From: Antitrichia curtipendula
Lineage: Eukaryota; Streptophyta; Bryopsida; Hypnales; Leucodontaceae
Direction: 5' to 3'
NCBI GenBank assembly: GCA_951230915.1
Contig: OX579634.1
Span: 18,254,725-18,318,724, forward strand
DNA: 64,000 nucleotides
Every line of letters starts with the position of its first letter. Position 1 is the stretch's first letter. Made by a program: the position numbers and the translations under genes. Positions 16,404 through 62,519 of the stretch are shown here, in pieces. Below the pieces are notes generated by a model. The model was not told the DNA's origin and ran no database searches. It was given only the letters and a program-made list of their open reading frames with translations.

Positions 16404-16630
16404 ATTGTACCGGCTTTTTCCTGGAAAAGGGCAACTCTCCGGTCCTTGCATGCAGGCTCATGCCAGCCTAGAACCGGGTGGCGTGGATTGCTGTGGTAGG
16501 TCCGACTGGTTCCTCGCGAGACTCATGATTCCGTCCACACCAAGGTGTAACCACAAATCCATCGCTGCCGGATGAGTGCTGCTTCCTTTCACACATTCCT
16601 GCGTCGGTTAAACGCCATAAACTTGCTTAC

Positions 16631-19724: not shown

Positions 19725-20652
19725 TTAACCCCTAAAGGTCAAAGACTATGTTTTCACCAAAACCGCTCCAAAATTGCTATATCTAATACAAGTACCAAAT
19801 TTAGAGAAAAAACATTTTTGGAAAAATGTAACCGTATGATCTTGTATTAAACTAGTTTGAGAAGTTGTGGAAAAAATTCAGAAAATTCCACCATGTTGAT
19901 TGCAAGATAATAGCGTTTGAATTGACAAAAATCATTTTTTTGTCCCTACGAAAGTCTGGGCAGCTGCACTTCACAAGGTCACATTTGTATGAAAAAATAT
20001 CCAAAATGATGGTTACTCTTTGGATTCATTCTTCAAGACAAGTTGGATACATGTTTGAAAAATTTCAAGTCATTTGAAATTGTAAAACATATAGGAAAAA
20101 AATAGTAAGTAGAAAGAGATAGAGAATGTTCAAAACACTAAATTGTTAAGAATTTAAAGATGGAATTGAAAATTCCAATTCCAACGGTTGTAATGTTGTA
20201 TTAAACAATCTACACATTTTCATTTTTTTTCTAAAAATATTTAAAATTGAGTTAAATAAAGGATTTCAAAGTTTATTTTAGATTAGAGATTCTATAACTA
20301 CCCTCAAACTAAAACTCCTCATAACTTACATCTCATTAATCAAAATGGAATGAATCAAAGCTTTCCACGTATATATAAATCTAAAGAACCAATTTCAAAT
20401 TTTAATTTAATAAAAAAATGATTTTAAAGAAGTTTTTTCAGCTGACCGGGCTGCCCACCAACCAATGAAAATGACATATCATGCAATAACTTTTTAACCA
20501 CATAGTCAAAAGTTATGAAAATTGTTGGCCTTAAATCTACTCCTCCGGCACATCTTGTGCAAAAATTTCAAAGAAAAAAAAAATTCTGGTCGTAGTGAGC
20601 TACCCAAAATCACTATGTTGTCAAAAATGGTTTTTGGTCCTTTAGGGGTTAA
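19725..20652 (+). mobile_element. TTAA-family element, copy 4
   Basis: Starts TTAA-CCCCTAAAGG and ends CCTTTAGGGG-TTAA. The interior matches copies at 11374, 28594 and 48059: 'aaaaccgctccaaaattgct', 'tgggcagctgcacttcacaa', and a right-hand block with AGCTGACCGGGCTGCCC. No coding capacity. Confidence 0.75.
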
Positions 20653-28593: not shown

Positions 28594-29499
28594 TTAACCC
28601 CTAAAGTTCCATGACTTTGTTTTCACCGAAAACGCTCAAGAACTGCCGTTTCTGGTACAAGTACCAAATTTTTGAAAAAAAACATTTTTTGATACATGTA
28701 ACCGTAGGATCTTGTAGTATGTTAAGTTGAGAACATGTGGTAAAAATTTCAGAAATTTTCACTGCGTGTATTGCAAGATATAAGCATTCAAAATCACTGA
28801 AATTGTTTTTTGCCCCTGCAAAAAATCGGGCAGCTGCACTTCAGAAGCTCACTTTTCTATGAAAAAATGCCCCAAATGGTGGTGCTTCTTTGGATTCTTT
28901 TTCTTAGACAAGTTGGCTACATGCTTAAAAAATTTCACATCATTTGGAATTGTACAACATATAGGAAAAAAATAGTAAGTAGAACAAAGTAAAGAATGAT
29001 TCAAAATACAAAAATGTTAAGAATTTAGATATGAAATTGAAAAATGCCAATCCCAAAGGTTGAAATGTTGTAATAAACAATCTACGCCCTATGGTTTTAT
29101 TTTTTTCAAAGGACTTCAAAGTTTATTTTAGAGTAGAAATTTCATAACTGCCCGTAAACTAAAACTCCTCATAACTTTTGACACATTGGTCAAAATGGAA
29201 TCATTCAAATCTTTCCATGTATATATAACTCTAGAAAACCAACTTCAAATCTTTGTTTCTGAAAAAAGTGATTCTTTGCGATCTGCCTGGACTGCCCGGC
29301 CAAGAAAAAAAATAACATATTAGGCCATAACTTTTGACTCGTATTTCCAAATGGCATGAAATTTAGTGCATATGAAAGATATTCCTCGCGCACAACTTCT
29401 ATTAAAATTCCAGCCAAAAATATGAGAATCTCTAGTCACAGGTACCTGCCCAAAATTTCTATACTGCCCAAAAACGCATGTTGGTCCTTTAGGGGTTAA
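28594..29499 (+). mobile_element. TTAA-family element, copy 7
   Basis: Starts TTAA-CCCCTAAAG and ends CTTTAGGGG-TTAA with matching flanks. The interior is one of the best preserved: 'accgaaaacgctcaagaact', 'tcgggcagctgcacttcaga', 'cataacttttgacacattgg'. No coding capacity. Confidence 0.75.
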
Positions 29500-40445: not shown

Positions 40446-43400
40446 CTACAAGTGTTCGTCATCTAGGTCTTCCATTTGTCTCGCTAGGTATTTCACAAGG
40501 TGTGGTTTAGCTTTGGGTAGAATGATCACTGTCTTCTCTGTTTGCACACCATACAAGATAACATTAGAACCTACGATGTGACCATCTCTCTTCCGACGCG
40601 GAACGTCCACCCAAGAATATATAGCGGCTTCCTTCTCAATCCAGGCAAATCTCTCACCAAACGGTTTCCATGTAGATTCCATGCAGTTCCTGTATCTCAT
40701 TCTATTATTGTCTGCTTCTACTTTTGCTCCAGGTCTCATTATAGGTCAATACCACAAAATCTTCATCTTCGATGCTTACGTCCTCTGTCCAAATTCAAGC
40801 ACCTTTCCAATGAAAAAAAGTAACCCCTCTCTTACTTCCGTTAGCTCTACTGTAAGAGCTACATATTGACCTACTACTATGTCGTTCTCTGGATAGAATG
40901 GTGGAAAAGCATCTTCATCTGCACCTTGTATTACTTCTGATAAAACTTCATTTCTTCTGCTTCTCCTCCTCCCCCCAGTAACTCTTCGTACTCCTTGTTG
41001 TGGAGTTTTGTCCCTGTGGGGTCCAAAGTAACCTCTCTTCTCAGGATTTGACATTATTGCCATAATCACGTCCACGGTTGCACTCTCTATTTCTGTCCCA
41101 TTTGCATTTTCTGTTCCATTTGAAATTGTATCTGCTTCCTCCACATTCGATGCAATACCACCATCTTCATTTCAGTTTTTGACATCACTCGACCAAAATG
41201 GTAAATCGCGAAAGCCTTCTCTACTTTATCATGGAAAATTCTCCAAATACTCCTTGAATTCATTTGTTTTGTCCACCACTTCCATGTCCCTAATCCGGTT
41301 GTTACCTCTCAACACCATCTTCTTCTTATATGCAATGAACTCGTTCAGTGCTTTCAGTTCTCTTTGATCAATGACAAAGACCTCCGCAAGATCCGATTTC
41401 TCTGCTACACTTGGTAGTGAATTCAAACATGAATGTCCTCCTGTGGGGCCCCATTCATCTTAGCAGAAATGTTTGTGTTGCACACGGACCAAACCATTTT
41501 CCACGTAAAACCTCATATGGTGTGGAAATGTTATGCCCATCAATTGCTCTCCTCCTCGTAGCAAATGAGGTGTGATGAATGCCTTCCAATCACGGATGTA
41601 TTCAAGCTTGCGAGCACTCACGAATGCCTCTGTATACGATGTTCCTTTCTTTACTCGTTGCAACATCTCCTCCAATATATCTATATCTTTTCTCTTCAAT
41701 ACATTGGAAATGACACTGAATCTTTGATCGATGTCCTCATGGATGTGGCCCACTATAAAAAAACAAAGATGCACTTCCTTGAAGAACCCAACCCAACCAG
41801 TGTAGTGCACATGGCGAACATGTAAATGTTCTTGTTTTCCCTCGTGGTGTTATTTGCTTGAATCTTCAACATCGGCGGCAAACTTCTCTTTCTTCACTTC
41901 ACGTCGTATATTACGTTCATCACTGATGTGATGACTTGATTGCTATCGTGTTTGTGGTGAGCATCTATCCACACATTTGCATACAAGCCGATCCCATGTA
42001 TAAGAATACCATACAAATGAGTCTTCACAAATCGAGATTTGATGTTCTTCACAGTCCGCCTCATCTTCGGTATCATGGTCGTATTTTGATCCATACCATC
42101 CACAATTAAGCACATAAAAAAATCTGGAGTGATCATCGCTGATCTTTTGAATATCCAATAATTTCGCTTCTCCTCCATCTGATATTGGATGTGCAACACG
42201 TACAACTCTTTTATCTTGACCTTAGCTAGTGCATTTGTCGTAGACTCCATTCCACACTTGTACTCCCAACAATGATATCACTTGAAAAACCTAGAGAAAG
42301 GTGGAATTTGCACGTGCGGAAATTCCTTCTGCCAAAGTTGATTGAAAGAGCTCATTGACAATTTCGATCCATCCACTGGTTTCTTCACTTCTTCATTCAC
42401 ATATCGGAAAACATCTAGTTTGCTCATATTCATTGGCAACAGAATCAACGGTAGTATTGCATTGTCTGTTTTCCTGCGTATCGATCGATGCGCTTGTTGA
42501 CATCCAACTTCATTTACAAAAACGTCAAGGCTTTCTCTAGCTGCTGACATTTTTGCACTTTCCCTTCCTTTACAAGTATTTCCATGAACTGCTGCCACTC
42601 TGCTGTATACAGCGTGTGCTATCTTCAACTGTTTCAACGCCTTTGAAAATAACCCAACGTCGCTGCGTAACATGCATTACAAACGACTGCACCATCTAAT
42701 TTTGTCACATACTTGTCTCTTCTTGGACGCTCAGTATGAGTGAAGAAAGCATTTAGCATTTGCATTATCCAAGTAGCCCGCGCTTCGTACTTCTGCCCCC
42801 ATGCCATGTAGCGCTGATCCAATATGTCTTTGGCGTCTACATCACGCAAACAATTATGTTTACATGCTCCTTTTTCCTTTCCGCACAAAACACTTTTGAG
42901 GATAACTTTCTGACTTGCTGACTCCCCTCTTTCTCTGGGACTTCTCACCCTACCCCTCCGATTTTCCATTGAATACTTCCTCCTTTGTGTATGTTGCGTT
43001 AATCCTCTTCTATTGAAATCCACAGTGCTGCCTTCAGAGTCTTGCGTCTGAGGAGAACTTCTCTCAGATGTGTTTCTTCCACCAGTACTTGACGGTGTCA
43101 TTTGTGAAGTGCTTGAGGTGTCCTCCACGTCATGAAAATCAAATTGAGGTGCATTGACTGGTGGAAAAGAAAAATTATTTCCCTCCCCTAAGGTCGTGGT
43201 CATTATTCTCACTTTTGAAGGAAGTGGCCAACGAACAAAAGCACGACGCCATCATATGATTTTCTCTACACAGTCTCCAATACACTTCCCTATCAATTCA
43301 CCAACTCATTATGTTGGGTGCACAACATGTATAACACAAATCGCAATTTCAAAAGGGCGTAATTTTACTCTGCGAAGTTCATCACCACAACTGAAGCGCG

Positions 43401-46065: not shown

Positions 46066-46073
46066 CTTACAAT
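46066..46073. repeat. Target-site duplication, left copy (CTTACAAT)
   Basis: An 8-bp direct repeat with 62512-62519, directly abutting the element end CAGGGTTGAC. It fits the hAT target pattern nTnnnnAn. Confidence 0.9.
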
Positions 46074-46400
46074 CAGGGTTGACAGGACGTCCGGATGTCC
46101 GCGTCCATGTCCGGCGGACGTGGACGCTGACCCCCGAACGTCTTTTGACATCCTTGGACGGGCCGTCCGATCGGTCGGATCCTCCGCGCGGTCGAGAGGC
46201 TCGCGGACAGTCCCGCGGACGGGCCCTCGGGCGGACAGGGCGGACGGACGGACGGACGCGATCGAGCGGATAAGATCGCGCGGATGGATACGTGCGGACA
46301 AGACGTCCGCGCGATCCCGTCCGCACGATCTGCCCGTCCGATTCTGGGCCGTCCGATTCGCACATACGCGTCCGCATTGCCTGGTCCGCCTTCGGACGCC
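46074..46400. repeat. Left terminal repeat and GGACG sub-terminal array
   Basis: After CAGGGTTGACAGGACGTCCGG the sequence is packed with GTCCG/CGGAC motifs in both orientations up to the gene A promoter. Base composition contrasts abruptly with the AT-rich flank. Such arrays in hAT elements are usually transposase-binding sites. Long open frames on both strands here are composition artefacts. Confidence 0.8.
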
Positions 46401-46432
46401 ATAAATAGCGTGGCGGACGGCTCATTCCTCAC
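46401..46432 (+). promoter_or_regulatory. Core promoter of zinc-finger gene A
   Basis: ATAAATAG at 46401-46408 is followed by GGACGGC and by CCTCAC at 46427-46432, 26 bases downstream of the TATA start. The same layout precedes the kinase gene and gene B. Confidence 0.6.
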
Positions 46433-46682
46433 AATCGTTTCCCTTGCGGAGTGGGTGATCCAGTGCCTCTCAGTGGCTCTGCGCGCCCCTTTCATTTTGG
46501 TGCGTGAACGATTGTGCTCGGATACTGAATTGCACCAATTTATTTTGGTGATTACTTGGTTTTGAAGGCCTTGTTAACAACTTCACCTCGTTTCATTGGC
46601 AAGTGTCAAACATTTTGTTCAGTTGTTCTAAAGTTTCATGTGAACTTTGTCATCAAATCATTTCATTTTAATCAAGGTTATC

Positions 46683-47780
46683 ATGCCTCGCAATAGTAGT
46701 TCAAGGTCCAGTAACAAAGGCAAATCCCAGGACATGAACTGGGGAGATTGGGCAAATCCAATGTGTGTAGCTGAACCTGGATGGGAAGAAGAGCCCAAGA
46801 AGGTTTGGGACTGCACAATGTGCAAAAAGTACGTGAAAATGACGCACCTCTCCAAAATGTGGTCACAAGAAAGAGCAGACAAACAAGTTCGACGCTAGGA
46901 AGGACAAATTTCCACGTGCGAGAGCCAACACTTTGTGCACCGATACGAGGAAGTAACGCGGTGCGCTGAGCTGCTTGACTCCAAACCAAATGTTATGAAT
47001 TATTCTAACATGGCCATGGTTTGGGCAGAGATTGTACTCCACAAAGATGTAGATTGGCGCACAATTTACGGGAAAAATGTTGACAATATGAAGCGCACTG
47101 ACGCTGTTATTTATACGAGTTGGACTCAACCAAGTGATTGTATGCAAATGTGGTCCAATCGAGGGCAGTTTGGATTTCCGCCGGTTGTATTGCCGGATAC
47201 TGAGGATGAATGGTCGGACGACGATGATGTAGAAGACAATTCAGCACCCGTAACATTTACAGTGGGACATGAGCGTCAAGAAGCTCGGGAAGACATCGAG
47301 TTCAATCAACAAATGCAAGAAGCTATGCGTAGGAGCATGGAGGATTGGGGTCAACAACACGGGCATGACAGGTCCTACCAACATGATCGTACTGCATCTG
47401 GTTCACAAGATGGTCAAAGGGTCTTACACTACGCTAACGACCCCCGAGGTACTTATTACAACCCAGAAAGAAGCCATGGAACCACACATGATTTGGGATC
47501 TAGCCAAGGAGGCTCCCAATACTTGTCCGGATCTACTACGGGTGGTTCATATGAGCGTCACACAGGCTCTCGTCATGTCGAACCAAGGCAAGGAAGGTCT
47601 CAGCACCGTGATGTAGTTCCTCCTCCAACTTTTGGAGGTCCTTACTATGGAAATCCCAATCAAGGAGCTACGCCAAGCGACTATGGATGCACTTGGGGCG
47701 GAGGACCATATCTTGGCACTTATGGATCCGGTTCCACACCACCAAAACGTAGAGATGACATCCATTCAGATTCCGAGTAA
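46683..47780 (+). pseudogene. Zinc-finger 'head' gene A of the giant element (one nonsense codon)
   Basis: The frame runs from the ATG at 46683 to 47780 (366 codons), interrupted by a single in-frame TAG at 46896-46898. The N-terminus is basic and Ser-rich (MPRNSSSRSSNKGK). A Cys/His segment follows, with C-x2-C, KKYVKMTHL, and a later C-x3-H, then SNMAMVWAEIVLHKDVDW. The latter half is acidic (DTEDEWSDDDD) and then rich in Gly, Ser, Gln and Tyr. The first 120 residues align without gaps to the start of gene B at the opposite end of the element, including across the stop. A DNA-binding role at the GGACG arrays is inferred from that Zn-ligand pattern and position, not shown. No known domain can be named; a BED-like finger is the nearest comparison. 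Either the copy is dead, or translation uses a splice or readthrough not visible here. Confidence 0.6.
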
Positions 47781-48058
47781 AGTAGGTAGAGCTATTTTAG
47801 TCGTTGTCTCACAATCGAGTGGGCCTTGGAATCTTTTGTTATTGGATTATGGAGTGTGGCAATCATAGTACAAACATATCGGCATCTCGGCGAATAGCAT
47901 TTACGATTTTACGTACTAAAATATTTTGATGTAAATATATTGTATTAAAATGTATTTGGAGGTTGGTACTTGGTATCATCATAGCGGTATCGTTCAAGTA
48001 TCAACTGTATTGCTTTTCAATATAAAAAATATTTGCGCATGACCAAATTCTATTATCA

Positions 48059-49008
48059 TTATCCCCTAATCGTTTTTGACTATGTTTTCACCAAAAACGT
48101 TCCAAAACTGCCATTTCTAATACTAGTGTCAAATTTTAGAAAAAAAACATTCTTGGACACATGTAACCATAGGATCTTGTAGTAAACTTGTTTAAGAAGA
48201 TGTGGAAAAAATTTCAGAATTTTCCACCATGTGGATTGCAAGATAATAGTGTTTGAATTGACAAAAATCCTTTTTTTGTCCCTGCGAAAAAACGGGCAGC
48301 TGCCCTTCACAAGGTCACATTTATATGAAAAAATGTCCAAAATGGTGGTTACTCTTTGGATTTATTCTTGAAGGCAAGTTGGCTACATGCTTGAAAATTT
48401 TCAGATCATTTGGAATTGTACAACATATAGGAAAAAAATAGTAAGTAGGAAGAGGTAGAGAATGATTCAAAACACTAAATTGTGAAGAATTTATTTATGG
48501 AATTGAAAAATGCCAATCCAACGGTTGTAATGTTGTAATAAACAATCTACACCCAATGTTTTTATTTTTTTTCAAAAATATTGAAAATTGAGTTAAATAA
48601 AAGACTTCAAGTCTTCAAAGTTTATTTTAGAGTTGAAATTCCATAACTACCCTTAAACTAAGAATCCTCATAACTTTTGACTCATAGATCTAAATGGAAT
48701 GATTCAAAGCTTCCCATGTACATATAAATCTAAAGAACCAATTGGAAATTTTTATTTTCTTAAAAAGTGATTTTTGAAGAAGTTTTTTTCGCTGCCCGTG
48801 CTGCCCGCCAAGGACTGAAAATGACATATCATGCAATAATTTTTTAACCATGTAGTCTAAATGTATGAAAATTGTTGGGCCTTAAAGCTACTCCTCGGGC
48901 ATGTGTTGTATGAAAATTTCAAAGAAAAAAAATATAAATTTCATTTGTAGTGAGCTGCCCAAAATCGCTATGTTGCTAAAAAAATCACTTTGGTCTTTTA
49001 GGGGTTAT
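48059..49008 (+). mobile_element. TTAA-family element nested in the giant hAT element (TTAT-flanked)
   Basis: Left junction TTAT-CCCCTAATCG; right junction TTTTAGGGG-TTAT. The flank TTAT is not a palindrome and is the same on both sides in direct orientation, so it is a true 4-bp target duplication. The interior matches copies 3, 4 and 7, including 'acgggcagctgcccttcaca'. Confidence 0.8.
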
Positions 49009-49353
49009 ATGTGTTCAACATTGATTATACAATTTTGAACCCAACCAGACCAAGCTAACATCCATCAACAATAATTGTTGCATTGCACTTCTCATTCAAG
49101 GATTTCAAGCAAAACATATGATGAATGCATAAATAGATGGTAGACATTGGACATTAGAAGTTTCAAAACATACAAACATTTCAAAACTTTATATGAATTA
49201 TAAGGGTGCACATATATTGGCATACATTGATGGTGCATATATATACTAGAAAATCCTTGCACACAATCATGCAAATTTATGTACTCGCCTCTACATTTAT
49301 CTAATACTTTTATAGTTCTATCACTTCTATGTCGTCCACTAACACCATAGACA
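49009..49353. other. Downstream region of the kinase-like gene
   Basis: AT-rich; probably the 3' flank or UTR of the minus-strand kinase-like gene. No separate gene is recognised. Confidence 0.4.
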
Positions 49354-50838
49354 TTAATATGAGTGGCGGAAGTGTTCATCCGGAATAGGCCAGTTGTAAT
49401 TATTGGTAAATCGATGGATGATTTCGGACAAGCTACCGCGAGAATCAATCACCGAATCACAAAGGCGCTCCAAGTAAAGGTGAAAAATCCTTGCCAAATC
49501 CTCATAGCTAAATCTTGTATGTCCTTCATTTTCCCGATGTAAGCTCACGTAGTCCGTCGACATGCAACCATTGTTGATGGCTTGAGCTATTCGACCAACC
49601 ACATATTCCTCCGATTTACGTGATAAATCCGGTATCATTGACACATCCGCATCTCTTCGGTGCAGGTATGCAATAGAAGGGTCCACCCACCACCTCTTTT
49701 TCAAGGTCTCAGTCCGCTCACTCTGAGAGGTGAACGTGTACAAGGACTTCATTGGTTCATTACGTAAAGTAGTCAGGCCCCAATCGCAAACTCCAATGTA
49801 AACACGTGACTCATCATTGGGAAAGTGAAACATAATGTTGTCCAGTGAAAGATCATTGTGCAAATGTCCAGTGTTGTGCACTGCATTCATGAGGTGCACC
49901 AATGTCCATGCAAGCTCCGTGCGCTTCTTCTTCCAACGACCAAGAAAAAAAGCTTTCGTCACCTCTTCCAGGGTCGGTTGAGAATAAGCCAACTGAATGC
50001 CAATGTTATCGGGATATTCCTTATCCAATTTTAACATTTGCTTCAATGTTCCGCCATTCCACCAATACGAGTACCCTTCGTTTTGCGTTGCATGAACAGC
50101 AGAAAACCGGATAACTCCATCATGTGGAATTCTCACTGCCATTGACTCGTTTTGGTGTTCCAACTTTGCGAGCGGAGGTCGTATGCGTTGTTGATGAGAT
50201 ACCTTCGCTGCGAACTCCCAAAATGTGGGTATCTCACGACATCCTTCAATTCGGACCCTCCGAATTGTTGCGTATCCACCCCTCAGGATTTGATCATCTT
50301 GTGGAATCACCCTTGCTGTTTCCGGAAGTGCTAAGAGATGTCGTCGCCCATGTTGCAACTCCACAACTCCCTCATCACTATTCCACCAACCCATTGAACC
50401 TCGCCTATTTCGATTCTTTGCAAAAGGAGCGCACTGGCGAACAAACAAGTCTGCCCTCAAAATGACCTGTTCAAAAGTGCCATCACCTACGCGGTGTTGC
50501 TTCCCGTACTTCTCTAAAATCACCTTTGCATTCCACAATGCATCATGGACCTTGTTCTTCAAAAATTGTTGAAAGCCCTTCTTCTCCATTTCATGAATCC
50601 AGTAGGGTACGTTTAAAGCATCCGTGAACTTTTGTGCCATATCTCCCTTGAATTTAGCTGGGCACTCGTCTTCATACCTCGCATATTTGGTATACAACGA
50701 CGCAGTGGTTTCCGACTCATAAAAATTGACAATGCATTCAATGAGAAATGCTTTGCAAGCGAGAGAAGGAGCGTCCATACTCGCCTCACTGTCCGACTTC
50801 ACTCGTTTGTCTTTCACAGCCTTCTTTGATCTCGGCAT
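49354..50838 (-). CDS. Protein-kinase-like protein carried by the giant hAT element
   Basis: An uninterrupted 494-residue frame from the ATG at 50838 (MPRSKKAVK). The first 180 residues are not recognised. A kinase fold follows: Gly-loop-like LRGGYATIRRV at about 186-196; AAK with Lys about 211 as the likely ATP-binding lysine; the catalytic loop HNDLSLDN at about 327-334; and CDWG at about 351-354, where most kinases have DFG. The HxD aspartate, its Asn partner and the DWG aspartate are all present, so activity is possible. A basic patch (KKKR) precedes the catalytic loop. The gene reads toward gene A, and its promoter lies beside a GGACG array. It is the only gene here with a complete ATG-to-stop frame free of nonsense codons. 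Substrate is unknown; phosphorylation of the transposase or a host regulator would be speculation. Family assignment within the kinases cannot be made by eye. Confidence 0.8.
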   Translation of the reverse strand: MPRSKKAVKDKRVKSDSEASMDAPSLACKAFLIECIVNFYESETTASLYTKYARYEDECPAKFKGDMAQKFTDALNVPYWIHEMEKKGFQQFLKNKVHDALWNAKVILEKYGKQHRVGDGTFEQVILRADLFVRQCAPFAKNRNRRGSMGWWNSDEGVVELQHGRRHLLALPETARVIPQDDQILRGGYATIRRVRIEGCREIPTFWEFAAKVSHQQRIRPPLAKLEHQNESMAVRIPHDGVIRFSAVHATQNEGYSYWWNGGTLKQMLKLDKEYPDNIGIQLAYSQPTLEEVTKAFFLGRWKKKRTELAWTLVHLMNAVHNTGHLHNDLSLDNIMFHFPNDESRVYIGVCDWGLTTLRNEPMKSLYTFTSQSERTETLKKRWWVDPSIAYLHRRDADVSMIPDLSRKSEEYVVGRIAQAINNGCMSTDYVSLHRENEGHTRFSYEDLARIFHLYLERLCDSVIDSRGSLSEIIHRFTNNYNWPIPDEHFRHSY

Positions 50839-51050
50839 TGTGATGAAATCACGTTTAGAAGTGCACTTGCAATTTGTAATCCACAAGGCAATATACAATT
50901 TGCCAAATGATCATACGCAAAATGTAGAAAAAAAAAGCAACAAGTATCCCCTAAAAATCACACTCTTATCTTCCCTTAGAAAGGAGCCAATGGAGGATAA
51001 ACCACCAAGCTCTTCGCTCTCTCTTGCATGACACAAGGAGGAAGATAAAA

Positions 51051-51083
51051 GTGAGGAGCGGACGGGCCGTCCGACTCTTTTAT
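51051..51083 (-). promoter_or_regulatory. Core promoter of the kinase-like gene
   Basis: On the minus strand: ATAAAAG from 51083, then CGGACGGC, then CCTCAC at 51056-51051, 27 bases downstream of the TATA start. This is the same arrangement as genes A and B. Confidence 0.6.
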
Positions 51084-51490
51084 GCAAGGCGGACGCCTCG
51101 ACCGTCCGCCTAATCGGACGGACCCGACGAGGCGGACGGATCATCGTCCGCCTCGTCAGGACCGTCCGATCAGGCGGACGCCACCCGTCCGACACATCGG
51201 ACGGCCACCGTCCGCTCTGGGCCGTCCGACCCTAAAATCGAAGGCGGACGCCTCGCCCGTCTGCTTGATCGGGCGGACGAGACGACGCGGACGGACAGTC
51301 ATCCGCATCGTAAAGACCATCCGATCAGGCGGACGCCACCCGTCCGACTCATCGGACGGCCCTGATGTATTGGACGGCTGCTGTCCGCCCAGGGCCGTCC
51401 GCCCTGGGCAATCCGCTTGATCGGACAGCCCCTCTCAAGTGGAGATCAAATTGAGAGATTTTTCGAGGTCGTCCGACCAGGCGGACAGCT
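51057..51490. repeat. Internal GGACG/CGTCC array
   Basis: GC-rich, dense in GGACG in both orientations. A block with GATCAGGCGGACGCCACCC is repeated at an offset of about 145-150 bp (near 51170 and 51325). It lies upstream of the kinase-like gene. Confidence 0.75.
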
Positions 51491-53703
51491 ACATCATCTG
51501 ACTCCTAAAACGACCTCAACCAGCAAATAATGACAAGGATTGGAAAGACAAAAATCTCATCGACATTCACTTTCTTACTTAAAGAACTTGAATCATTAAA
51601 TAGAACTCCAGCGTTTTTTTAATGCAAAGATCTTCAATTTTATACACTAAGTCCTACATCCTAAATCCTATACCCTAAAACCTAAATCCCAAATTATACT
51701 CTAAAGTTACAAATGTAAGAAATCATAACTAATTAAAAATATGAAAACAAATGCAAATTAAGTTCCTCAAGAAATATATGGACCATCTTCAATTAAGAAC
51801 TTAACTTGAGGATTCTTGATTGGGTTTAGGTGTTTCTTGAATTCATAGCATGCACAAGTTCGCAAATAAAGCTTTGAAGTCAATTTTTTAATTTCTTATG
51901 TGAATATATTTTGTTAAACAAATTCAACAATAGACATTTTATGTAACTTTATCAACACCATTGTCCCACATTAGTTGCATGAATTTATACCTCAAAGAAT
52001 TCACCAATGTGCAATTGTGCATGGAATTTAAAAATTAAATGTTTACTTCTCTAGCTTTTTTAAATTGGGATGTTTGGTCATTCAACCCTTTGAGGAATAT
52101 TCACGTACGTCTTTCACCTTGTGCATTTTAGCCAAAATTTAGGCAATTGAGTTATGAATAAATGATTAAATGTGAAATGTTTAACCCCTATTTTTTAGGC
52201 ACCTTGGCACCTTGCTTAACTACATTTTTTTGCGATGAACCTTTTTAACTAAAAAAGGCTACTCTAGTGATGGTGAATGTCTAATTTTATATGATAAACA
52301 ATTGATTTGAGAATCTAAAAAAAAGATTTTAAAAAAGAAACACTTAGTTTTCACTCATTAAAAAATTGTTAGGTAGAAGTAGATTCAAGATCAAAGGAAA
52401 AATTAAATCATTAATAGCTCTAAGATAGTAAGATAGAATTGAAATATACTAATTTCCACTTTGAGATTATTCTAGCAAGGAATCTAGACCTCATGAATTT
52501 TTTTTTTGATTTTAACTCTTAGAATTCAATTCAAAAATGAATACTTCAAGTTATTTATTCTAAAAGATACCAAAAAAACTCAGAAAATTACAAAAAATAT
52601 TGAGGCCATAGGAGCCTGTCTAAAAATCTTACATCCATTTTGGCCCCCGATAGGACAATGGGACTTTAGAGAATTAGAGGTTAAACTCAAAAGAACTATA
52701 CATTCATTTTTAAAAATTTGTGAAGTAGAAATTGATGTACTATTAAATGAAAAATAATACGCTAATAACTTTTGGAAGAATTGAAGAATTGTTAATCCCA
52801 ATGAAAAAAATATTCTAATAGACAATTAATATTCTTTGATATCAATTTTGAATAACGAACTTTGAATTCTAGAGACATAAGACAACTCTATATGCTTTTT
52901 CTAACTTCATGATCCGCACTCCACAAGACCGCAAGTCCGCAACATATAAGTTATATAACTCCAAATGATTTTTGACAACATTATTTGACATTGAATGGGG
53001 CAATTTCTTATAAGTAGGTAATTACTAATTAGGTATCAATCTATACTATCATGACCAAAATGATTTTTTAATATTACATCAAAATATTATCACACATCCA
53101 TTTTCGAAATACACTTCTAATTTGGACAACATTTATATAAATGACATGAACCCTAAATCCTAAATCCAAAATCCTATATTAGAACTTTGCATACAAATAT
53201 CTTAGAAGATCGTGACTTTGATGCAATAGTATTATATAAGTACATAGCAATTGTTTTTAGTTTCATGACATTAAGTCGGGTTTCGCTTACTTCGACAAAT
53301 TTCTTTATAAAAACAATTATTTTAAAATTGAGATGTCTTACAGTATATAGTAATATATGATTAAAATCCAAATAAATTTTTGAATATAATTAAATCTACG
53401 ATCTATCATCAAAAATTTAGAAAAAAAAATTTAGAACTATAGGTAGCATTTCATTTTGATCTTTCAAGATGGTCATTTCAAAATATCATTGAGATGTTTA
53501 ATTTCAAGATTGCACCTAAAAATATGATGTGCACATTGAAGAATGAAGTTTGATGTCGGTGCCATGAGGAGTCCAATGTCTTTGAAGTATTCACATTGGA
53601 TGCTTGTTGTCATGAAGGCACACTCTTTGAAGATGACCTGGCCATTTCAGGAATCCTATGCTGCACTAAATGAGAAAAAAACATGCACTGCCATGGTCTG
53701 ATG
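51491..53703. other. AT-rich spacer inside the giant element
   Basis: No gene is recognisable. It contains a degenerate telomere-like run (CCTAAATCC variants, about 51645-51715) and the nested TTAA-family element at 52181-52684. Confidence 0.5.
52181..52684 (+). mobile_element. TTAA-family element, internally shortened, nested
   Basis: Starts TTAA-CCCCTATTTT and ends GAATTAGAGG-TTAA. The interior corresponds to parts of copy 1 ('caccttgcttaactacattt', 'cattaatagctctaagatag', and a right block with ACAATGGGACTTTAG) with the middle and left third missing. Confidence 0.6.
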
Positions 53704-53898
53704 GGCGGTCGGACCGTCCGCCCGTCGGACGGAGGTGACCAAGGCGCGGACGAGACACCAGGCGGACAGGCGGTCAGACCATCCGCCCGTCGGACGGAGG
53801 TGACCAAGCCGCGGACGGGCCACCAGGCAGATGGGCGGTCGAACCGTCCGCCCATCGGACGGAAGTGACCAAGGCGCAGACGGGCCACGAGGCGGACG
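53704..53898. repeat. Internal GGACG array: three tandem 65-bp units
   Basis: Units begin GGCGGTC at 53704, 53769 and 53834. Each contains CCGTCCGCCCGTCGGACGGA-like sequence, then GGTGACCAAG. It sits about 180 bp beyond the 3' end of the transposase frame. Confidence 0.8.
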
Positions 53899-54081
53899 GA
53901 CGGACAGACGGTCTTCGCTAGTTTTAAGGTATTTGAAAAAACAAAATTTTGATGGTGTGCACAACATGAATGAGCAAATTTGTATTACAAACTTAAAGTT
54001 CGAACAATGAATTGTCATAACATAATGTGTTTAGGGTAAAAAACTAAACACCCAAGTTTACATCTTCTCAATCTTTATAAA

Positions 54082-57000
54082 CTATGGTTGATAGTCACTA
54101 TCTCCTTTGACTTCAGCCCCGCTACTATGACCTATTGTATCCCATCCGGAATCATCGTCACTGGATGAATTTTGCATACTATCTGATGAAGATTGTACAA
54201 TCTTCCCTCCTTCTTCTTGTACTTGTTTCGATGTGCTTGATCTCACTGGTCTACCTAACTTATGATCCCTTTTGACTTTTAGTAGAGACTTTCCAATACC
54301 TCCCTTAAGATCGTGGATTGGTTTCACCTTTCGCTTGGTTAGAGGCAGACTTGCATCAAGGGGGGTTCTACCTACATTTTGTTTTTTCAATGGAGAGATT
54401 GCAAAAGGCTTCATTATTCTTTTCCTCTTAGCTTTTTTGGACTCCTTCACCGCGGGTGGACGTGCTTCCGAACCTCCTGGAATGTTTGTCTTCTCTGCGG
54501 ACAAAGCTTCCACTGTAGGGTTTGAAAATTTGATCGGAGAATGCTTTGCATGGCAAGAAAATCGACGAAACATAAACTCCAATGTTTGCACATCATCGTT
54601 GTCTGATGAAACGGATGGATTGGGATTGGCTCCAATATGCAATTCCTTCAAATTGCTCAAATGTTGTTCTTTGAACAGTAAGTCTTTAGGACCATTCAAA
54701 GTCGTGCTACCGCTTGTATATAGTGCATGTCGAGGACCGCTACGTGATGGTAATTGAGGATCTCGTACGAGGTGCTTCATGTCTTTGGCGTTGCGGTGTG
54801 ACATTGGGCACACGGACTCCAATACACATGGATCTTGACTTCCCTCTATTCAAGGTGCTTGGGCATTTTGAATGCCGAAAAGTCCAATAGTTTCACTTGT
54901 CAATGCCCTTGGAAATTCAATATTTTGGTTGATCACATTTGTGTGGGACTTCACCCCACACTCTTTCATGTCTTCGTGTTGATCATTTTCTTCCGCTCCT
55001 ACCGTTGTCATGGATGGACACTCGGGAATTCGAATCACTTCATCCATTTGGGGAGTTTCATCACCTATAACCATTTCCTCATCTTCCTCCGCTACCTTCG
55101 CATGAGTATTTTCCCTATTTGCTAGAATGTTTTCACTACGCAACAATCCGGTTCCATCTAAGTATTTAGCTATGGAAGGTCCACCTTCGTCATATTCACA
55201 ATCGTCCTCATTCAACGAAAACTTGTAAGGGTCTTCACAATGATCTCCGATGTCTGCATCATAATGAGGTGGGCTTCGAAGCGGTTCATCATCGAAATTG
55301 CGGATGCCGTGGTCATCTTCATCGTCTATGAGGGGATCAACTTCTTCACCGGATTCACCACCCTCGTCTTCCGATGAAGACAAGGCCGAATCCTCCGACT
55401 CGAGGTTCTCATCGTACCACTTTTTCTTGTCATTTTGCTTTGATGCACCGAGGACTTTGGAATTGGTATACACATATACCAAATCCTGTGCTCTTTGTAG
55501 CTTCAACTTGTTTCGATATTTGTTGTGAACAAAAGAATAGCTACTCCAATTTTGTTCACATGAAGACGATGATACCGGTTGGGCCAAAATCCTTTTGGCA
55601 ATTGGAGCAATGAGCTTCCCGCACGCGCCCTCAAAATCCCACCAAGCATGCGCCGACAATTGTTGTTCACCCGGATCCAACATGTTGTGGAACGGAGGTT
55701 CCCTATGGCGGAAGGCTACAAATTCCTTCACCACCTTCGCATACTCTGAAGGTGTACATATTTGCATCAAAACGCGCTTGCATGCAGCCATGGCATCGGT
55801 GTCGTCGGCTAGTTCTTTGTCTTCAAGAAGGTAGGGATTCAAAAGTGCTCCTGCATAATGTAAATCGGTCTTCACCATATCACGTCGTTCGTAGAACGCC
55901 TTCACCAACGAGATGGCTTTATCCAAAGCCAAACAAAAAGGCTCTTTGTCTAAAGCGAAGACGTGCTTCTCTAGTTTCCTCATAATATGTAACACCTTGC
56001 CCATGCATGGTGTCTTCGCATCCAAATCACGAAGAGCACTAACAATTGGAGCTGTCACATCTTCAAAATTTTGACAACGATGCCAAAAATGCCCACTTAG
56101 AATGGTCTTCTTCACCCGTTCGGATTCTAAACGAGTTTTGGATTTTCGCGAGTGTTTTCTAGCATATTCCTCCCATTGCGGGTCCGTCACAGTTTGTTGC
56201 AATTGTGCTCTCACCTTGAGCATACGTGCAACCATGTTGTAATTCGAGGCAAATCTTGTTTTCATCGCCAACAACAAGTTGTACTGCGTCGAATACTTCC
56301 GAAGTATCGCAAGCGGCATGTGCCTCTTCTTGAAGAATTTGACTATCTTTCGGGAATCTTTCACGACGTCATCAATCCATTGTTCGTTTGCCCAATCTTT
56401 TAGCAACAAATTCAAGGCATGCACCACGCAACCTTGGAAAAAAATGTGGGGATAGGTAGTAGATACCAAACTCCATGCTGCTGGATTTACAGCCGCATTA
56501 TCTGTACTCACCTGCACTACGTTTGCAGGGCCCACTTATTCTATAAAACTCTCTAATATAGAAGCCAAATATGGAGCATCTTTTGTTTTCCCAGTTGTAT
56601 CCACCGATCCTAGGAATTGCTCACCCGCGGATGACACAAGCATGGCATTTATCAATGGCCGATTCGAAACCGAGGTCCACCCATCAATAGACAATGTGGC
56701 TCCAAACTTCCTGATACTGGTTTCTGTCCGCTTACGGAGATTGACCTCTAAGTCTACCTTAGCTTGGTCAAGCAATTTATGACGTAGATCATGGTATGAT
56801 GGTGGGCTATAAGGTTGGTGAAACTCCGCCGTTTTCTTCACTGCTTCTTTGAAGGCTGGATTTCGGGCTACAGCAAATGGTATATTTGCCGCATAAAAGA
56901 AATTGGCCCACATTGCATTCAAAATGCGTTTATTTGCTTCGTCGAATCCCTCTACTAGCCTACTTTGTCTTTGAGGCCTACTGCTTGATGTCCGCTAAGT

Positions 57001-57399
57001 TCCACGTCCACCTGATGCTTGTGTACTTGGATTTCCTTGGGAAGAACCACCAACATATTCCTCTGGTGCCGTGCATGAGTCTTTTTCGGTAGAGTTCACA
57101 GTGTCTCTCGCATTTGACATAGCACGAACAACCATAGGCATAGGTGTGTCATTGCCATCCACATTGTATGGAGTACCTCTTTGTGGAATCACTCCATTGC
57201 AACGAACAAATAGACCTCGAACTTCAGATGTCATTTGAGTACAAAGGCTGATTCCTTTGTCACGACTCCCCGATGTGCCTGCATATCCCAAATGACTAAA
57301 CATACGGACCGGCTTTTTGACAAATACCAATTTGCAAGCCTTGCATTGTACTTTTCCATTTGATAGGGTTTCGTACCAAGAAGACCAATCCTTGGTCAT
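54082..57399 (-). pseudogene. hAT transposase with BED finger, three in-frame nonsense codons
   Basis: A single minus-strand frame from the ATG at 57399 (MTKDWSSWYE), with stops TAG 56995-56997, TAA 56536-56538 and TGA 54850-54852, and no frameshift. Domains in order: a BED-type zinc finger (VQCKACKLVF ... FSHLGYAG ... ISLC, about residues 5-55); a DUF659-like segment with LSIDGWTS, which carries the first catalytic Asp; VVQVSTDNAA with the second Asp, directly after the TAA; and the C-terminal dimerisation region AWWDFEGACG ... SSCEQNWSSYSFVHNK with the catalytic Glu. An acidic, Ser-rich tail leads to the TGA. Beyond it a further 255 codons stay open, with basic NLS-like KKAKRKR and a Ser/Asp-rich end. 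The protein would cut and rejoin the element ends in the nucleus. All catalytic landmarks remain, so the gene looks recently disabled. Introns removing some stops are possible but not needed to keep frame. Confidence 0.85.
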
Positions 57400-57699
57400 G
57401 GTGGCTATTTTAGGCTCTATGTATTGAAACCCTAAATTCAAAACGTAATGATAACAATTGGATAAAATCGTTCAAATGTTTATGCACAAAGCCTTGGAAA
57501 ACAAGGCCCCCCTTTCCACTGAACTATGCATTACTAAGCAAGGGACACAAAAAATTGCAGCGCCTAGCCCTTGGAAATCTTAACGTTCAGATTCTTAAGA
57601 GTGTTTGCAAATGTCAATTTCAGGACTCTTATAGTCTTCATCTGTATGTGACCGTTGAATATGGGAAAAAAAAAAATCCTCCCACAATGGTCATGCGGA

Positions 57700-58085
57700 C
57701 GACGGACGGCCAATTGGACCGTCGGAACAGCGGACGACGGACGGAGGACGGCCAACTGGGCCGGCGGAACAGCGGCCGGCGGACGACAGACGCGAATCTG
57801 GTCCGTCTGAACAGCGGACGGGCGGACGGCGGACGGGAATCTGGTCCGTCTGAACAGCGGACCGGCGGACAGTAGACGGCGGACTGAAGCCGTCGGATCA
57901 TCGGACAGGCGGACGGGAATCTAGGCCATCGGATCAGCGGATGGGCGGTCGGTGGACGGGAATCTGGACCGTCGATTCAGCGGACGGTGGACGGTGGACG
58001 GCGGACCGCGGACGGGCCGACCTAAAACCTGCCGGGCAGACAGGCGGTTCTTACAATTTCGGTAAGATGTTTGAAGTGTGCAGAC
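57700..58085. repeat. Internal GGACG array with about 43-bp repeats
   Basis: GAATCTGG(T/A)CCGTC-type blocks occur at about 57794, 57837, 57917 and 57960, separated by runs of GGACGG. It lies upstream of the transposase gene (minus strand), 300 bp from its ATG. Confidence 0.75.
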
Positions 58086-58489
58086 AGGCGGACAAGTGGA
58101 TTACGCGAATAGAAATGTATGTGCAAATGAAAATGGGTGATTTGTAGGCATGGGATTATAGAAGATAACATAACAATAACTTGAAATGATTTTGTACAAA
58201 TGTAAATAGGTATGATCTTCTGCAATAGGTACGCAAAAGAAACATATTTGACAAATAAAAAAGGCAAAATTTACCATTATGAAAAAACAAATCCAAACAT
58301 ATTTGTATTGCATAAATATTTATACATTAATTAAAAGCAACTCATGACATACTATGAGTGTTGTGCATTACTAATATTGAATCCTCATGAGATTCAAATA
58401 AGTACAAAACAAATTTCATTGGTTAACCCCCTAATACAAACACTATTTTGTATCATCGCTACTGTTTGCGGAAATATGAGAGGCACCCT

Positions 58490-59611
58490 CTAACCCTCTT
58501 GTTCCTTAAGTCTTCGACTTGCTCTACGAGTTTGAAGACCACCGGACCCGGAGCCTGTGCCCCCTCCTGATCGGACTTCCATGTCCACGGCAATGAATTG
58601 TCGTTTGGTTTCTGGAGAGTAGTCATCTTCGTCTTCCATCTTCCGTTTATTTTTCTTTGTGAGAGACAAATCTACTTCCTCTGCCTTTAACGCTCTCAAA
58701 GCCGAATAAATCTTTTTTATCATAGCATTTACCGCTTTGTCATCATCTCGAGGGGTCAACGAGATCGTTTGCCCTGTGCCATGTAGAAAAGTCCTCCACG
58801 TCGTTATAATGTCGGTGATCTTCTTATCAAATGCACTTGTCACCTCCACGAGTGCATGTTCTGTGTTTGATAGCCCATCTACATTAAAAGCAGCACGAAC
58901 TTGCGCAGCTTCTTCCAATTTTGATAAGAAGAGGGCCCTCCTTATTAAGCTGTGATTGTATGCTCCGTAATGCTCATTGAACTCTTGGGATGGTTGCACT
59001 TCTATCCAGACGCCATCTTCTCCTTTCCGCACTTCCTTTTCAGGAAATTGGAAGAACTTTTGATGTGAGATGCTCCAGTGTCCCCCCATGCTACGACAAA
59101 ACAATTCTCGAGCCTCCAAGTCTTCAATACCCCTGGCCCGCAACTCCACCTCTCTATTGCGCGTCATCCAGTCAAAGTCATCCAATTCGTCATTGTAATT
59201 CTCACAAACATCATGCATGAGTTTTTGCGCATTCCAAATTAGAGGTCGCCCCCAATGAATGTAATTTTGGAATAGAAATGGCTTTTGGTCAAGTGGAAGG
59301 GTCCATCGATTGTATTCGTGGCTAGGGGGCATGCTCTCCTCGTGCCCAACCATTTCGTAAAACCTAGGGCTCAAAGGAGACCGACACTCGGGACAAACCG
59401 AACGAACAAGGGATGATTTCACCATACACGTGATATGGTAAGTGTGGCGACATTGGCCCATGATTAAGGCGCCCTCGGGACCAAAATGATTTAGACAAAG
59501 GTTGCATTTACCCTCCAATAGTTCCGTATTTGAACTTTCACCATGCACTACTATTTTGTCCGCCTCTTTGATGTGCGCTGAATGCGTGTTGTAAGGGGCC
59601 CAACCTTTATT
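58490..59611 (-). CDS. RING-H2 finger reading frame, probably a downstream exon of gene B
   Basis: An open frame of 374 codons (59611-58490) with no ATG before the RING domain. It begins right after TAG at 59614-59612. The RING is C-x2-C-x15-C-x-H-x2-H-x2-C-x10-C-x2-C (CNLC ... CRHTYHITC ... CPEC), the C3H2C3 type of E3 ubiquitin ligases. The rest is unrecognised, ending with a Gly/Ser-rich stretch, an acidic/basic patch (KKNKRKMEDEDD) and a basic tail. A possible intron, GTACAT at 59729 to TAG at 59612 (118 nt), would join gene B at Glu to this frame in phase and supply the missing start. If so, the product is a zinc-finger/coiled-coil/RING protein. Such a ligase could control levels of transposase or of host factors; that is inference. 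Confidence 0.65.
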   Translation of the reverse strand, partial: NKGWAPYNTHSAHIKEADKIVVHGESSNTELLEGKCNLCLNHFGPEGALIMGQCRHTYHITCMVKSSLVRSVCPECRSPLSPRFYEMVGHEESMPPSHEYNRWTLPLDQKPFLFQNYIHWGRPLIWNAQKLMHDVCENYNDELDDFDWMTRNREVELRARGIEDLEARELFCRSMGGHWSISHQKFFQFPEKEVRKGEDGVWIEVQPSQEFNEHYGAYNHSLIRRALFLSKLEEAAQVRAAFNVDGLSNTEHALVEVTSAFDKKITDIITTWRTFLHGTGQTISLTPRDDDKAVNAMIKKIYSALRALKAEEVDLSLTKKNKRKMEDEDDYSPETKRQFIAVDMEVRSGGGTGSGSGGLQTRRASRRLKEQEG

Positions 59612-59624
59612 CTACTTCCAAGGT

Positions 59625-61976
59625 CTAATTGATGGACTTTGACGCAATCTTCTGCAAGTCATTCAATCGCTCAAACATTGCCGACATGTCCCCCCAATAT
59701 GTGACGTCAATTGAACCCCAATGATGTACCTCAAACATCCTTCTAATAGATAAGAGGTCAGAGGAAATGGCATCGCATTGCTCCTTCGACTTCATGGCTA
59801 ATTTGAGAAGCCCCTTCATTGCTCGGGTTATTACAGACAGTTTGTCTTGTAGTTTTTGAACCCACGTCAACCAACGAGTGTCGGAACTGCTCTTTGGCAA
59901 GCATTTATCTAGCTCCATTAATTGCATAATTTTCTGATATTGTGCCTCCAAATAGACGTTTTGTTGAGTTACCAACTCTAGTTCATGCTTCACCTCTTCA
60001 AACTCGTGGCCTTCCGTTTGCATGGACGCGTCTTGGAATGTGGGAGGAGGATTATCCATGGCGGTTTCGGATATTACTTCCTTTTGGTTGTTTTCCTCAA
60101 CCGCTTCTATACGCACGGCTCCGCCGGTCTTTGGAAGAACATATCCTCCATCCTTCAAATTCTTTTGCTTGAGCGCTACAATTTCGTACTCCAATTTCTC
60201 AATCAATTCCCTTTGAAAAACTAGAGTGTCATATCGGGAATCCTGTGCGTTCGCAAATCTTTCATAATTAGCGCACACTCTTTTGAATGCATCCTTCAAT
60301 TGCTTGTGGTCTTCTTTCAATTTCTCGTGCTCTATCTTCAAGGCTTTGTATTTCTCATTCTCTTCAGCAAAGATGAGCAGCTTGCGATTATTTTCGACCC
60401 GCTCCTCCAATAATGGTTTCATAGACGTGACGAAATTCCAAAACGACAAGGCACCTTCCACCAACTCGGGCTCGGATTTGGTGAATATCTGAGCAACTTC
60501 CATAAGTTTGGGGGCAATGCTAGCTACAAATTGAGCTGTAATCGGCAATCTTTTGGAGGTGATCACAAAATTGGGCCATTCATCACTGTATTCAGCGAAA
60601 AGATTATTCGGTCCGGCCTTGTTTGCGGTTTCAGTTAAGCCCGCCTTGTTTGCGGGGTTACTAGGACCGGCCTCATTTGTCTCGATTACTTGCTTTGGTT
60701 GAAGAGAGATGTCTTGTTGATGTGCCCTAAACAAATAAAAAGCTTCCAACAAGCTTTCCAATTCACTCGCCATTGGCAAATGACGAAGATCCTCCAATTG
60801 TGCCGTATTTTGAGTTGACAAATGCGGATAGCTCTTATCCAATGGGTTGTCATCAATGGACACATTTTGCGCCATGCCATCGAGTTGCTTTCCATTTTTT
60901 GGCAACATCTGCCCTTCAACTCTTGGGCTCGATACGGGGCCCAACATGGGGCTTGATACGAGGCCCAATACGGTGCCCAATACGGGGCTCAATACGGGGC
61001 CCAATAGGGTGTCCAGTACGGGGCTCGATACGGGGCCCAATACGGGACTCAATACGGGGCTCGATGTGGTTGGCAAGTCTTGATTGCAAGGTACTTGTGT
61101 CATAAAATTCGTAGCATCGCTTGCTATAATATTATCAATTGATGCAATGGCCCTTGCCATATGTTCGGGACGAACCTCTTCCCGATGTTTTTGTGGTGCA
61201 GACGGGGTCACCGGTTCCTCCTTCACGGGCCGCATGCTTGAAGCACCACTTTGTTCACCCACAGATGTAAAATTGCGTGTGCATATCCAATCCGCCCAAG
61301 GAGTTGAAAACACCTCTCCATCAACACCTTCCACCGTGGCATTTGACATTGTAGTTGGAATCTTCATAGAATCCAAATGTACTCCAATATTTCCCTTCTC
61401 CATGATCTCTTTTTTAACCTACATTAAAGCATATTTTTGTAGCTTCTGTGATTTTGGTGCCTCACTTGGACTTGCCTTTGGATCATACAAATCGGGTTTA
61501 TCTTTTTGCCCTTTTGTAAGCAAAAGCGGAGCCGTAGTTGTCGTTGGATATGTGCTCCAGTCCACCTTCCGAGCCAATATGAGCTCAGCATACACCATAG
61601 AGGCCACGCTGTAGTTTATGAGACCCTTACTCATTGATTTGTCCCCGAAGAGGGCCCGCCAAACCTCAAGTGATCAATGGACAAAATGTCCATCCTTGCA
61701 ATTCGATGGCCTGCAACAAAACCCTCGTGTGTAAATAATGTGGAACTCACGAGGCCACAACTTGTCGATGTGATACATTTTCACATATCTTTTGCAGATT
61801 TTGGAGGTCCAATAAGTTTCTTCCTCCTTCTCCCATTCGCTCTCCGCTTTGATATTTGGATCATCTAAAATGTCCCAGTGAAGCTCGTGGGCAGTCCCCT
61901 TTGATTTTGTCTTCGTGCTCTTGCCACCTCTTGAAGTCATCGCTATAGTACCCTTGCTCGTACCGTCCGTTGTCAT
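59625..61976 (-). pseudogene. Zinc-finger/coiled-coil gene B of the giant element (two nonsense codons)
   Basis: One frame from the ATG at 61976 (MTTDGTSKG) to TAG 59627-59625, 784 codons, with an in-frame TGA at 61676-61674 and TAG at 61421-61419. The N-terminal 120 residues parallel gene A without gaps: W-x4-C-KRYVKMYH, C-x3-H, HFVH, SVASMVYAELILARKVDW. The TGA stands where gene A has CGA. An ATG at 61403 after the second stop opens an uninterrupted 592-codon frame. That part contains a PVL/SPV-rich repeat zone, then a long coiled coil (EENEKYKALKIEHEKLKEDH and on), then a second helical region. No enzyme motif is seen. It reads inward from the right end of the element, mirroring gene A. 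The 592-residue part could be translated on its own, or the full frame could be spliced; RNA would decide. Confidence 0.65.
60928..61064. repeat. 15-bp coding minisatellite in gene B
   Basis: About nine units of AATACGGGGCCCAAT with point changes, in frame. They encode a degenerate SPVLGPV-type pentapeptide repeat on the minus strand. Confidence 0.8.
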
Positions 61977-62100
61977 GGCTGACGACAAGTGATATCAAAA
62001 AATAATTGACCTCACTCTCCACCCGTATAGGAGCAACCAGCACAATGAAGCAACGGTTGTAACGTTCGACACGGGTTCCACCTCTAAATGGAGAGAAGAA

Positions 62101-62134
62101 GTGAGGAAAAATGGAAGGGCCGTCCGCCTTTATA
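62101..62134 (-). promoter_or_regulatory. Core promoter of gene B
   Basis: On the minus strand: GTATAAAGGCGGACGGC (TATAAAG 62134-62128), then CCTCAC at 62106-62101, 27 bases downstream of the ATAAA start. It lies within the right sub-terminal array. Confidence 0.65.
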
Positions 62135-62511
62135 CCCGTCCGCCACCAAACCTAAAGTAGGTCCGGCTGCGGACGCCCTCCCAAACCTCCCGAAGCGGAC
62201 TAGGTCGTCCGATTGATCGTCCGAACCTATTGTCCGCTTGATCGGACGGTCTGACCGTCTGCTGGATCGAGCGGCCGGGTCGTCCGATCAATCGGATGAT
62301 CTGACCGTCCACTTGATCGGACGGTCAGATCGTCCGAGTCGAACCGCCCGTCGGCCGACCGCCGTCCGCCCGTCCCGTGGTCTGCGTCCGTCGGACGTGG
62401 CCACTACATCCGCTGCGTCCGCAACAGCGTCCGCGGACGCTGCGTCCGGATGTCCGGACGTCCGATTTTTGGACGTAATTTGCCCCCGGACGTTCCAATT
62501 CGTCAACCCTG
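62107..62511. repeat. Right terminal repeat and GGACG sub-terminal array
   Basis: Dense GGACG/CGTCC motifs run up to GTCAACCCTG at the edge. Near the tip the palindromic GGATGTCCGGACGTCC mirrors GGACGTCCGGATGTCC just inside the left end. Confidence 0.8.
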
Positions 62512-62519
62512 CTTACAAT
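62512..62519. repeat. Target-site duplication, right copy (CTTACAAT)
   Basis: Identical to 46066-46073 in direct orientation and directly adjacent to the element end. Confidence 0.9.

Follow-up and report, generated by a model that had tools for sequence, protein, structure and literature searches.

Transposons of the hAT superfamily usually carry a transposase alone (Ac of maize has one gene), and hAT transposases need subterminal repeats. Since hAT-type jumping genes normally carry a single gene, the element described here is unusual: it spans about 16 kb and holds a zinc-finger-like gene (gene 1), a putative kinase gene, a hAT transposase gene and a gene whose product has a predicted RING-H2 domain (gene 4). 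It lies in a 64-kb stretch of DNA of the moss Antitrichia curtipendula (the window; G000:C2:18254725-18318724), which was analyzed together with the assembly it belongs to (400 Mb, 303 contigs). VANDAL elements, a second point of comparison, are Mutator-like; the moss element differs from them in being a hAT with putative kinase and RING genes, and it resembles the VANC system by array layout alone.

Like Ac (4.6 kb; PMC3260210), the moss element has a transposase with a C-terminal dimerisation domain, short terminal inverted repeats (TIRs), an 8-bp target-site duplication (TSD) and subterminal repeats, but it measures about 16 kb and carries three further genes. ToxhAT of fungi is a 14-kb hAT-named unit which moves a cargo gene (PMC12506042) and is alike in being a large unit of this kind; its cargo is an effector, whereas one constant set of kinase, RING and zinc-finger-like genes is present in each whole copy of the moss element that was read. 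In Arabidopsis, the short motifs associated with VANDAL/VANC lie in tandem repeats that evolve fast and occupy non-coding and terminal regions (PMC5735166), and the moss element is likewise a multi-gene DNA transposon with fast-changing arrays of a short motif in such places. Fungal DNA transposons, a hAT lineage included, encode a TET/JBP dioxygenase, an accessory gene thought to counter silencing (PMC12730594); they carry this one captured gene, while the moss element has three accessory genes, none of which matched a dioxygenase in Pfam scans of the element proteins. Natural barriers to large cargoes of eukaryotic DNA transposons have been discussed in a review (PMC6431247). No description of a comparable multi-gene hAT was found in the open-access literature (most subscription journals lay outside the search). 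The moss element belongs to the hAT superfamily and carries a fixed set of accessory genes; its multi-gene architecture is new as far as the open-access literature shows.

Ends, copies and insertion of the element

The window copy occupies positions 46074-62511 (16,438 bp) and is a decayed member of a high-copy family in the 400-Mb genome. An initial annotation had placed a giant hAT element here, and its coordinates proved exact: both TIRs (CAGGGTTGAC) and the 8-bp duplications flanking them (CTTACAAT) were found (Table 1). Exact matches to CAGGGTTGAC in the window numbered two (0.09 expected), both at the element ends. The 8-bp TSD, the short TIRs and a transposase with a C-terminal dimerisation domain all accord with a hAT element. 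On the other hand, pairs of a 10-bp TIR and an 8-bp TSD occurred three times in the real window and twice across 60 Markov sequences; therefore the ends of the window copy are by themselves suggestive but no proof. The decisive evidence for the element is its other copies, the TIR/TSD pair alone being insufficient.

Three such copies, chosen for perfect ends and a perfect TSD, were read end to end. At 16,549, 15,977 and 16,198 bp they were collinear with the window copy, and all three held gene 1, the kinase gene, the transposase gene and gene 4 in the same order. Identity to the window was 96.3-98.5% in coding DNA and 97.9-99.1% in the AT-rich and other non-coding DNA, with some of the genes broken (gene 1 in the C6 copy; the transposase in all three). 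Such copies, sharing gene set and gene order with the window copy, are what the initial annotation had named as support for its reading, and its counter-case, that all other copies contain only the transposase, fails against three whole copies with the full gene set.

Candidates across the genome were scored in part (83 of 1379 for the kinase, 110 of 1328 for the RING, 40 of 426 left ends and 40 of 543 right ends), and absence from the lists of scored candidates does not equal absence from the genome. All scored kinase copies were 91-100% identical, and 29 of the 83, the window's own included, had no internal stop. A RING lay 5-15 kb off in the expected orientation for 44 of the 83, against 0.11 expected under random placement; the median kinase-RING distance was 9,090 bp (9,136 bp in the window), and five further pairs within 15 kb had an unexpected arrangement. 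A scored left end accompanied 18 of the 83 kinase copies, a scored right end 18, and a RING plus both ends two. Thirty kinase loci, one being the window's own, were aligned with the window around the kinase and all matched it, at 92.8-100% identity: homology reached 52308 or further in 25, and stopped at 51693-51705 in the other five (L016, L019, L020, L025 and L029), a break that hints at a second structural variant upstream of the kinase.

Among the left ends of 20 other copies, the TIR was exact in 12 and changed in L044, L045, L049 and L050, which still aligned to the end; L039 and L043 aligned only from 46109 and 46335, and L040 and L047 gave no alignment. Right-end stretches were taken for 14 of the 20, namely L045, L050 and the 12 copies whose left TIR was exact. 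The right end was reached in seven; homology ended at 62149 in L059, the stretch of L064 ended within the element, and element DNA of at least 80 bp was absent from five of the 14. Each further copy had been expected to carry a duplication of its own, and perfect private 8-bp TSDs were present in six of seven further two-ended copies (TCTACAAC, CTTATTTT, GACGTCAC, ACTTAGAC, GATTTACC and GGTGACGT), the seventh matching at six of eight bases with two mismatches (CTTGATAT/CTTAATAC). The distances between paired left and right ends (n = 9) were 16438 (window), 16821, 16086, 16164, 11840, 16215, 26041, 15657 and 15854 bp, so that seven of nine fell within 15.6-16.9 kb. One pair (G000:C8:351458-377498) is 26.0 kb apart and may represent a nested insertion or a variant of greater length.

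The same annotation had named an empty site as alternative support, and for one whole copy a related site with 92% identity was found. The joined flanks of the C2:14.77M copy plus one TSD (GATTTACC) aligned to locus L062 over 743 columns without a gap at the junction; L062 holds the target once, with one base changed, and is a related repeat, distinct from an allelic site. It nevertheless shows that the target of this 15,977-bp unit was continuous DNA. For the joined flanks of the window copy and of five other copies, no spanning match was present in the retrieved DNA.

These copies bear directly on the alternative that a short hAT, or its ends, encloses unrelated host genes or other transposons by chance. 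Such nesting would be in keeping with a 10-bp TIR and 8-bp TSD that are merely moderately rare by chance, and with two AT-rich stretches resembling repeats elsewhere in the window, but it is opposed by the three other whole copies (same content and order, own TSDs), the empty site and the kinase-RING arrangement in 44 of the 83 scored copies. Already refuted by the copies with an identical gene set, it keeps next to no probability. A unit of about 16 kb with four genes and five arrays of the motif CGGAC, very probably, inserts as one piece and has spread to many sites.

Genes of the element and their relatives

The element holds four genes, i.e. gene 1, the kinase gene, the hAT transposase gene and gene 4. 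The initial annotation had listed four reading frames besides the transposase, moving with it as one unit; the joint movement held up and the count did not, as its RING, coiled-coil and right-end open reading frames (ORFs) are one gene.

Table 1. Features of the window copy, with positions in the window (aa, amino acids)
Feature	Position	Strand	Remarks
Left target-site duplication CTTACAAT	46066..46073	.	flanks left TIR directly
Left terminal inverted repeat CAGGGTTGAC	46074..46083	+	exact
Left subterminal CGGAC/GTCCG array, 21 motifs	46074..46440	.	upstream of gene 1
Gene 1, zinc-finger-like protein, 365 aa	46683..47780	+	one in-frame TAG at 46896-46898 in window copy
AT-rich stretch	48059..49007	.	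75-84% related to repeats elsewhere in window; in 30/30 kinase loci
Kinase gene (putative)	49354..50838	-	494 aa from Met; intact in window copy; catalytic residues present
Internal CGGAC/GTCCG array, 26 motifs	51055..51500	.	upstream of kinase gene
AT-rich stretch	52204..52686	.	related to repeats elsewhere in window; complete in three whole copies
Internal CGGAC/GTCCG array, 12 motifs	53695..53925	.	downstream of transposase gene
hAT transposase gene	54082..57399	-	single frame, 1105 codons; 3 in-frame stops in window copy
Internal CGGAC/GTCCG array, 18 motifs	57690..58050	.	upstream of transposase gene
Gene 4: N-terminal domain shared with gene 1, coiled coil, predicted RING-H2	58490..61976	-	broken in window copy
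Right subterminal CGGAC/GTCCG array, 22 motifs	62110..62490	.	upstream of gene 4
Right terminal inverted repeat CAGGGTTGAC	62502..62511	-	exact
Right target-site duplication CTTACAAT	62512..62519	.	flanks right TIR directly

The transposase, demonstrated in the window copy and the three whole copies only, matched DUF659 (PF04937; 3.3e-11 and 8e-15) and Dimer_Tnp_hAT (PF05699; 1e-8) in Pfam, and both domains are also present in its relatives. Its description as a BED/hAT transposase is thus borne out for the hAT part; for the BED finger, the N-terminal pieces gave no Pfam match, and a CxxC...H pattern is visible by eye. Stops interrupt the frame at 56995-56997, 56536-56538 and 54850-54852 (codons 135, 288 and 850) in the window copy, and at codons 322, 372 and 412, codons 336, 409 and 946, and codons 409 and 1007 in the three other whole copies.

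The kinase gene has the sole intact gene frame of the window copy. Its Pfam match (Pkinase, 2.4e-4) is below the Pfam cut-off, and its AlphaFold model, with a predicted local distance difference test score (pLDDT) of 82.6, has structural matches among kinases, including FGFR2 and ULK1 (E ~1e-8). From model and residues, the product is predicted to have a kinase fold with the catalytic Lys, Glu, HxD Asp, Asn and DFG-type Asp. There were 50 relatives at E <= 0.001, including two Ceratodon purpureus proteins, P0023 and P0033, the latter belonging to a cluster of 126 members. In an alignment of the window protein with 33 of the 50 (mostly the longer ones), K236, E255, D353, N358 and D376 were invariant in all 34 sequences, and identity to the window kinase was 41-66% for 27 of the 33. 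Moreover, a kinase relative (P0036) and a transposase relative (P0073), known from records alone, each sit on a 27,639-base contig, with the same source for both; the chance of such equal sizes is ~0.0008 when contigs between 10 kb and 1 Mb are considered. A second shared contig size (3,215) was disregarded, the sources being different. No kinase relatives were found in the genome contig collection, in viral contigs (queried with relative P0012) or in phages; genomes near the window's own were possibly excluded there.

Gene 1 is open in four of ten sister copies read (L072, L074, L077 and L078), and its Pfam match to zf-C3HC is weak (0.0091, below the cut-off). Gene 4 is interrupted in the window copy by stops at 61674-61676, 61419-61421 and 59625-59627 and by a frameshift near 59610; it is open in sister copy L069 over 1184 codons (1178 amino acids from Met) and in L068 over 1144 codons with the first residues missing, and its coiled coil and RING are joined in relatives P0057, P0067 and P0052. 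Its matches to zf-RING_2 (1.9e-5) and zf-RING_5 (1.4e-5) both fell under the Pfam cut-offs and RING finger protein 24 was matched at 1.2e-4; by these similarities, gene 4 is predicted to carry the RING-H2 domain of RING-type E3 ubiquitin ligases. A structure model of the RING was poor (pLDDT 60) and was not used. Gene 1 and gene 4 share a homologous N-terminal domain according to hhalign (probability 98.4, E 5.9e-15, 34% identity over 117 columns); therefore, one domain was duplicated within the element. A 12-bp coding tandem repeat in gene 4 (window 60925-61089; PVLGPVSS-like peptide repeat) varies in length among copies.

Variation of the kinase gene was then compared among copies. Singletons comprised 63 synonymous, 144 non-synonymous and nine stop changes, and shared variants 27, 38 and one, respectively (a weak lean to synonymous), against 491 synonymous and 991 non-synonymous among all possible transitions; the pairwise ratio of non-synonymous to synonymous rates (dN/dS) averaged 0.42, and the five catalytic residues were retained in 29 or 30 of 30 copies. 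Such near-neutral variation is what a gene-capturing (Pack-type) hAT would show, in which kinase and RING are host passengers hitch-hiking with the element, and so are the 39 of 83 scored kinase copies without a scored RING in place. This reading is nevertheless unlikely in view of i) the diverged relatives (27 of 33 at 41-66% identity) with catalytic residues kept in 33 of 33; ii) the moss kinase cluster of 126 members; iii) the kinase and transposase relatives on contigs of equal size (27,639 bases); iv) the domain duplicated between gene 1 and gene 4; and v) the motif arrays shared beside the genes.

Motif arrays, AT-rich stretches and window surroundings

The element has 120 GTCCG/CGGAC motifs, a density of 7.3 per kb compared with 0.55 per kb in the window outside it; the five blocks of Table 1 account for 99 of the motifs. 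Blocks held 12-26 motifs each, compared with means of 1.0-1.6 and a maximum of 7 in 2000 mononucleotide shuffles. Between copies the arrays were 87-95% identical with many gaps, versus 96-99% elsewhere in the element; the CGGAC arrays evolve faster than the rest of the element. The internal arrays are similar to the terminal ones, as they would be if several related hAT elements had fused into a composite and the internal arrays were old ends. They are unlike old ends, however, because no TIR with 0 or 1 mismatch was found inside the element; moreover, their positions agree among the three whole copies. A composite origin is accordingly very improbable.

An idea that the AT-rich stretches were later insertions specific to the window copy was dropped, because 48059-49007 is present in 30 of 30 kinase loci and both stretches are present in the three whole copies, where the former is 98.6-99.1% identical. 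Of the 30 kinase loci, 25 include the first part of 52204-52686; the loci end near there. A dispersed AT-rich repeat, 75-84% identical to 48059-49007, lies at 19725-20651, 28594-29498 and 11402-12099 of the window. Outside the element, the window has five ORFs of at least 150 amino acids, two of which were scanned with Pfam: a piece of an HD-Zip gene at 14403-14888 (minus strand; Homeodomain 8.6e-17, HALZ 1.2e-10), consistent with a land-plant host, and a 205-amino-acid open frame at 42637-43251 (minus strand), which had no Pfam match at E <= 0.01 and may be another transposon gene.

Possible roles of the accessory genes

Several observations weigh against a four-gene element that moves whole under its own transposase and is served by its accessory genes: i) an intact transposase was not found, with stops in four of four copies examined; ii) the transposase N-terminus was unrelated to the domain of gene 1 and gene 4 in an hhalign comparison; iii) the right end was not shown in seven of 14 right-end stretches; iv) among the scored candidates, a kinase lay inside only two of nine end pairs and a scored RING inside five, and a scored RING was missing from the expected place in 39 of 83 scored kinase copies, so that kinase copies may also occur outside full elements; v) AT-rich non-coding stretches are conserved between copies at least equally to the genes; and vi) kinase variation inside the genome looks nearly neutral. 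From the last point it follows that most copies decay after insertion, and the functional case therefore rests on the diverged relatives.

The element would have been cut and pasted between its 10-bp TIRs by the 1105-amino-acid transposase of an intact source copy, probably through binding of the subterminal CGGAC arrays. The products of gene 1 and gene 4, with their common N-terminal domain, may bind both the terminal CGGAC arrays and those next to genes; the RING part of gene 4 may ubiquitinate host or element proteins and the kinase may phosphorylate the same proteins, with the combined outcome, modelled on VANC/VANDAL, that the element is kept expressed or host silencing is countered. We put this scheme forward tentatively and give it somewhat less than an even chance. 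The arrays might instead be transposase-binding sites or spacers only, and kinase and RING might regulate the activity or timing of the transposase rather than host silencing. The need of hAT transposases for subterminal repeats is in line with such a restricted role, which is a possibility to be taken seriously while falling short of probable. It is rather doubtful that the element carries a built-in module for host manipulation, conserved across mosses, in which a kinase, a RING protein and two proteins sharing a targeting domain work on the CGGAC arrays all along the element so as to prevent silencing or set the timing of transposition; if true, a plant DNA transposon would here counter host defence by means of phosphorylation and ubiquitin.

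Thus, a moss hAT of 16 kb with four genes is able to move and has attained a high copy number. The findings suggest that kinase and RING genes of this sort in moss genomes are transposon genes and not host gene families. The CGGAC arrays make the idea of host control directly testable, and if the accessory genes are functions of the element, plants would have transposons that use phosphorylation and ubiquitin to influence host control.

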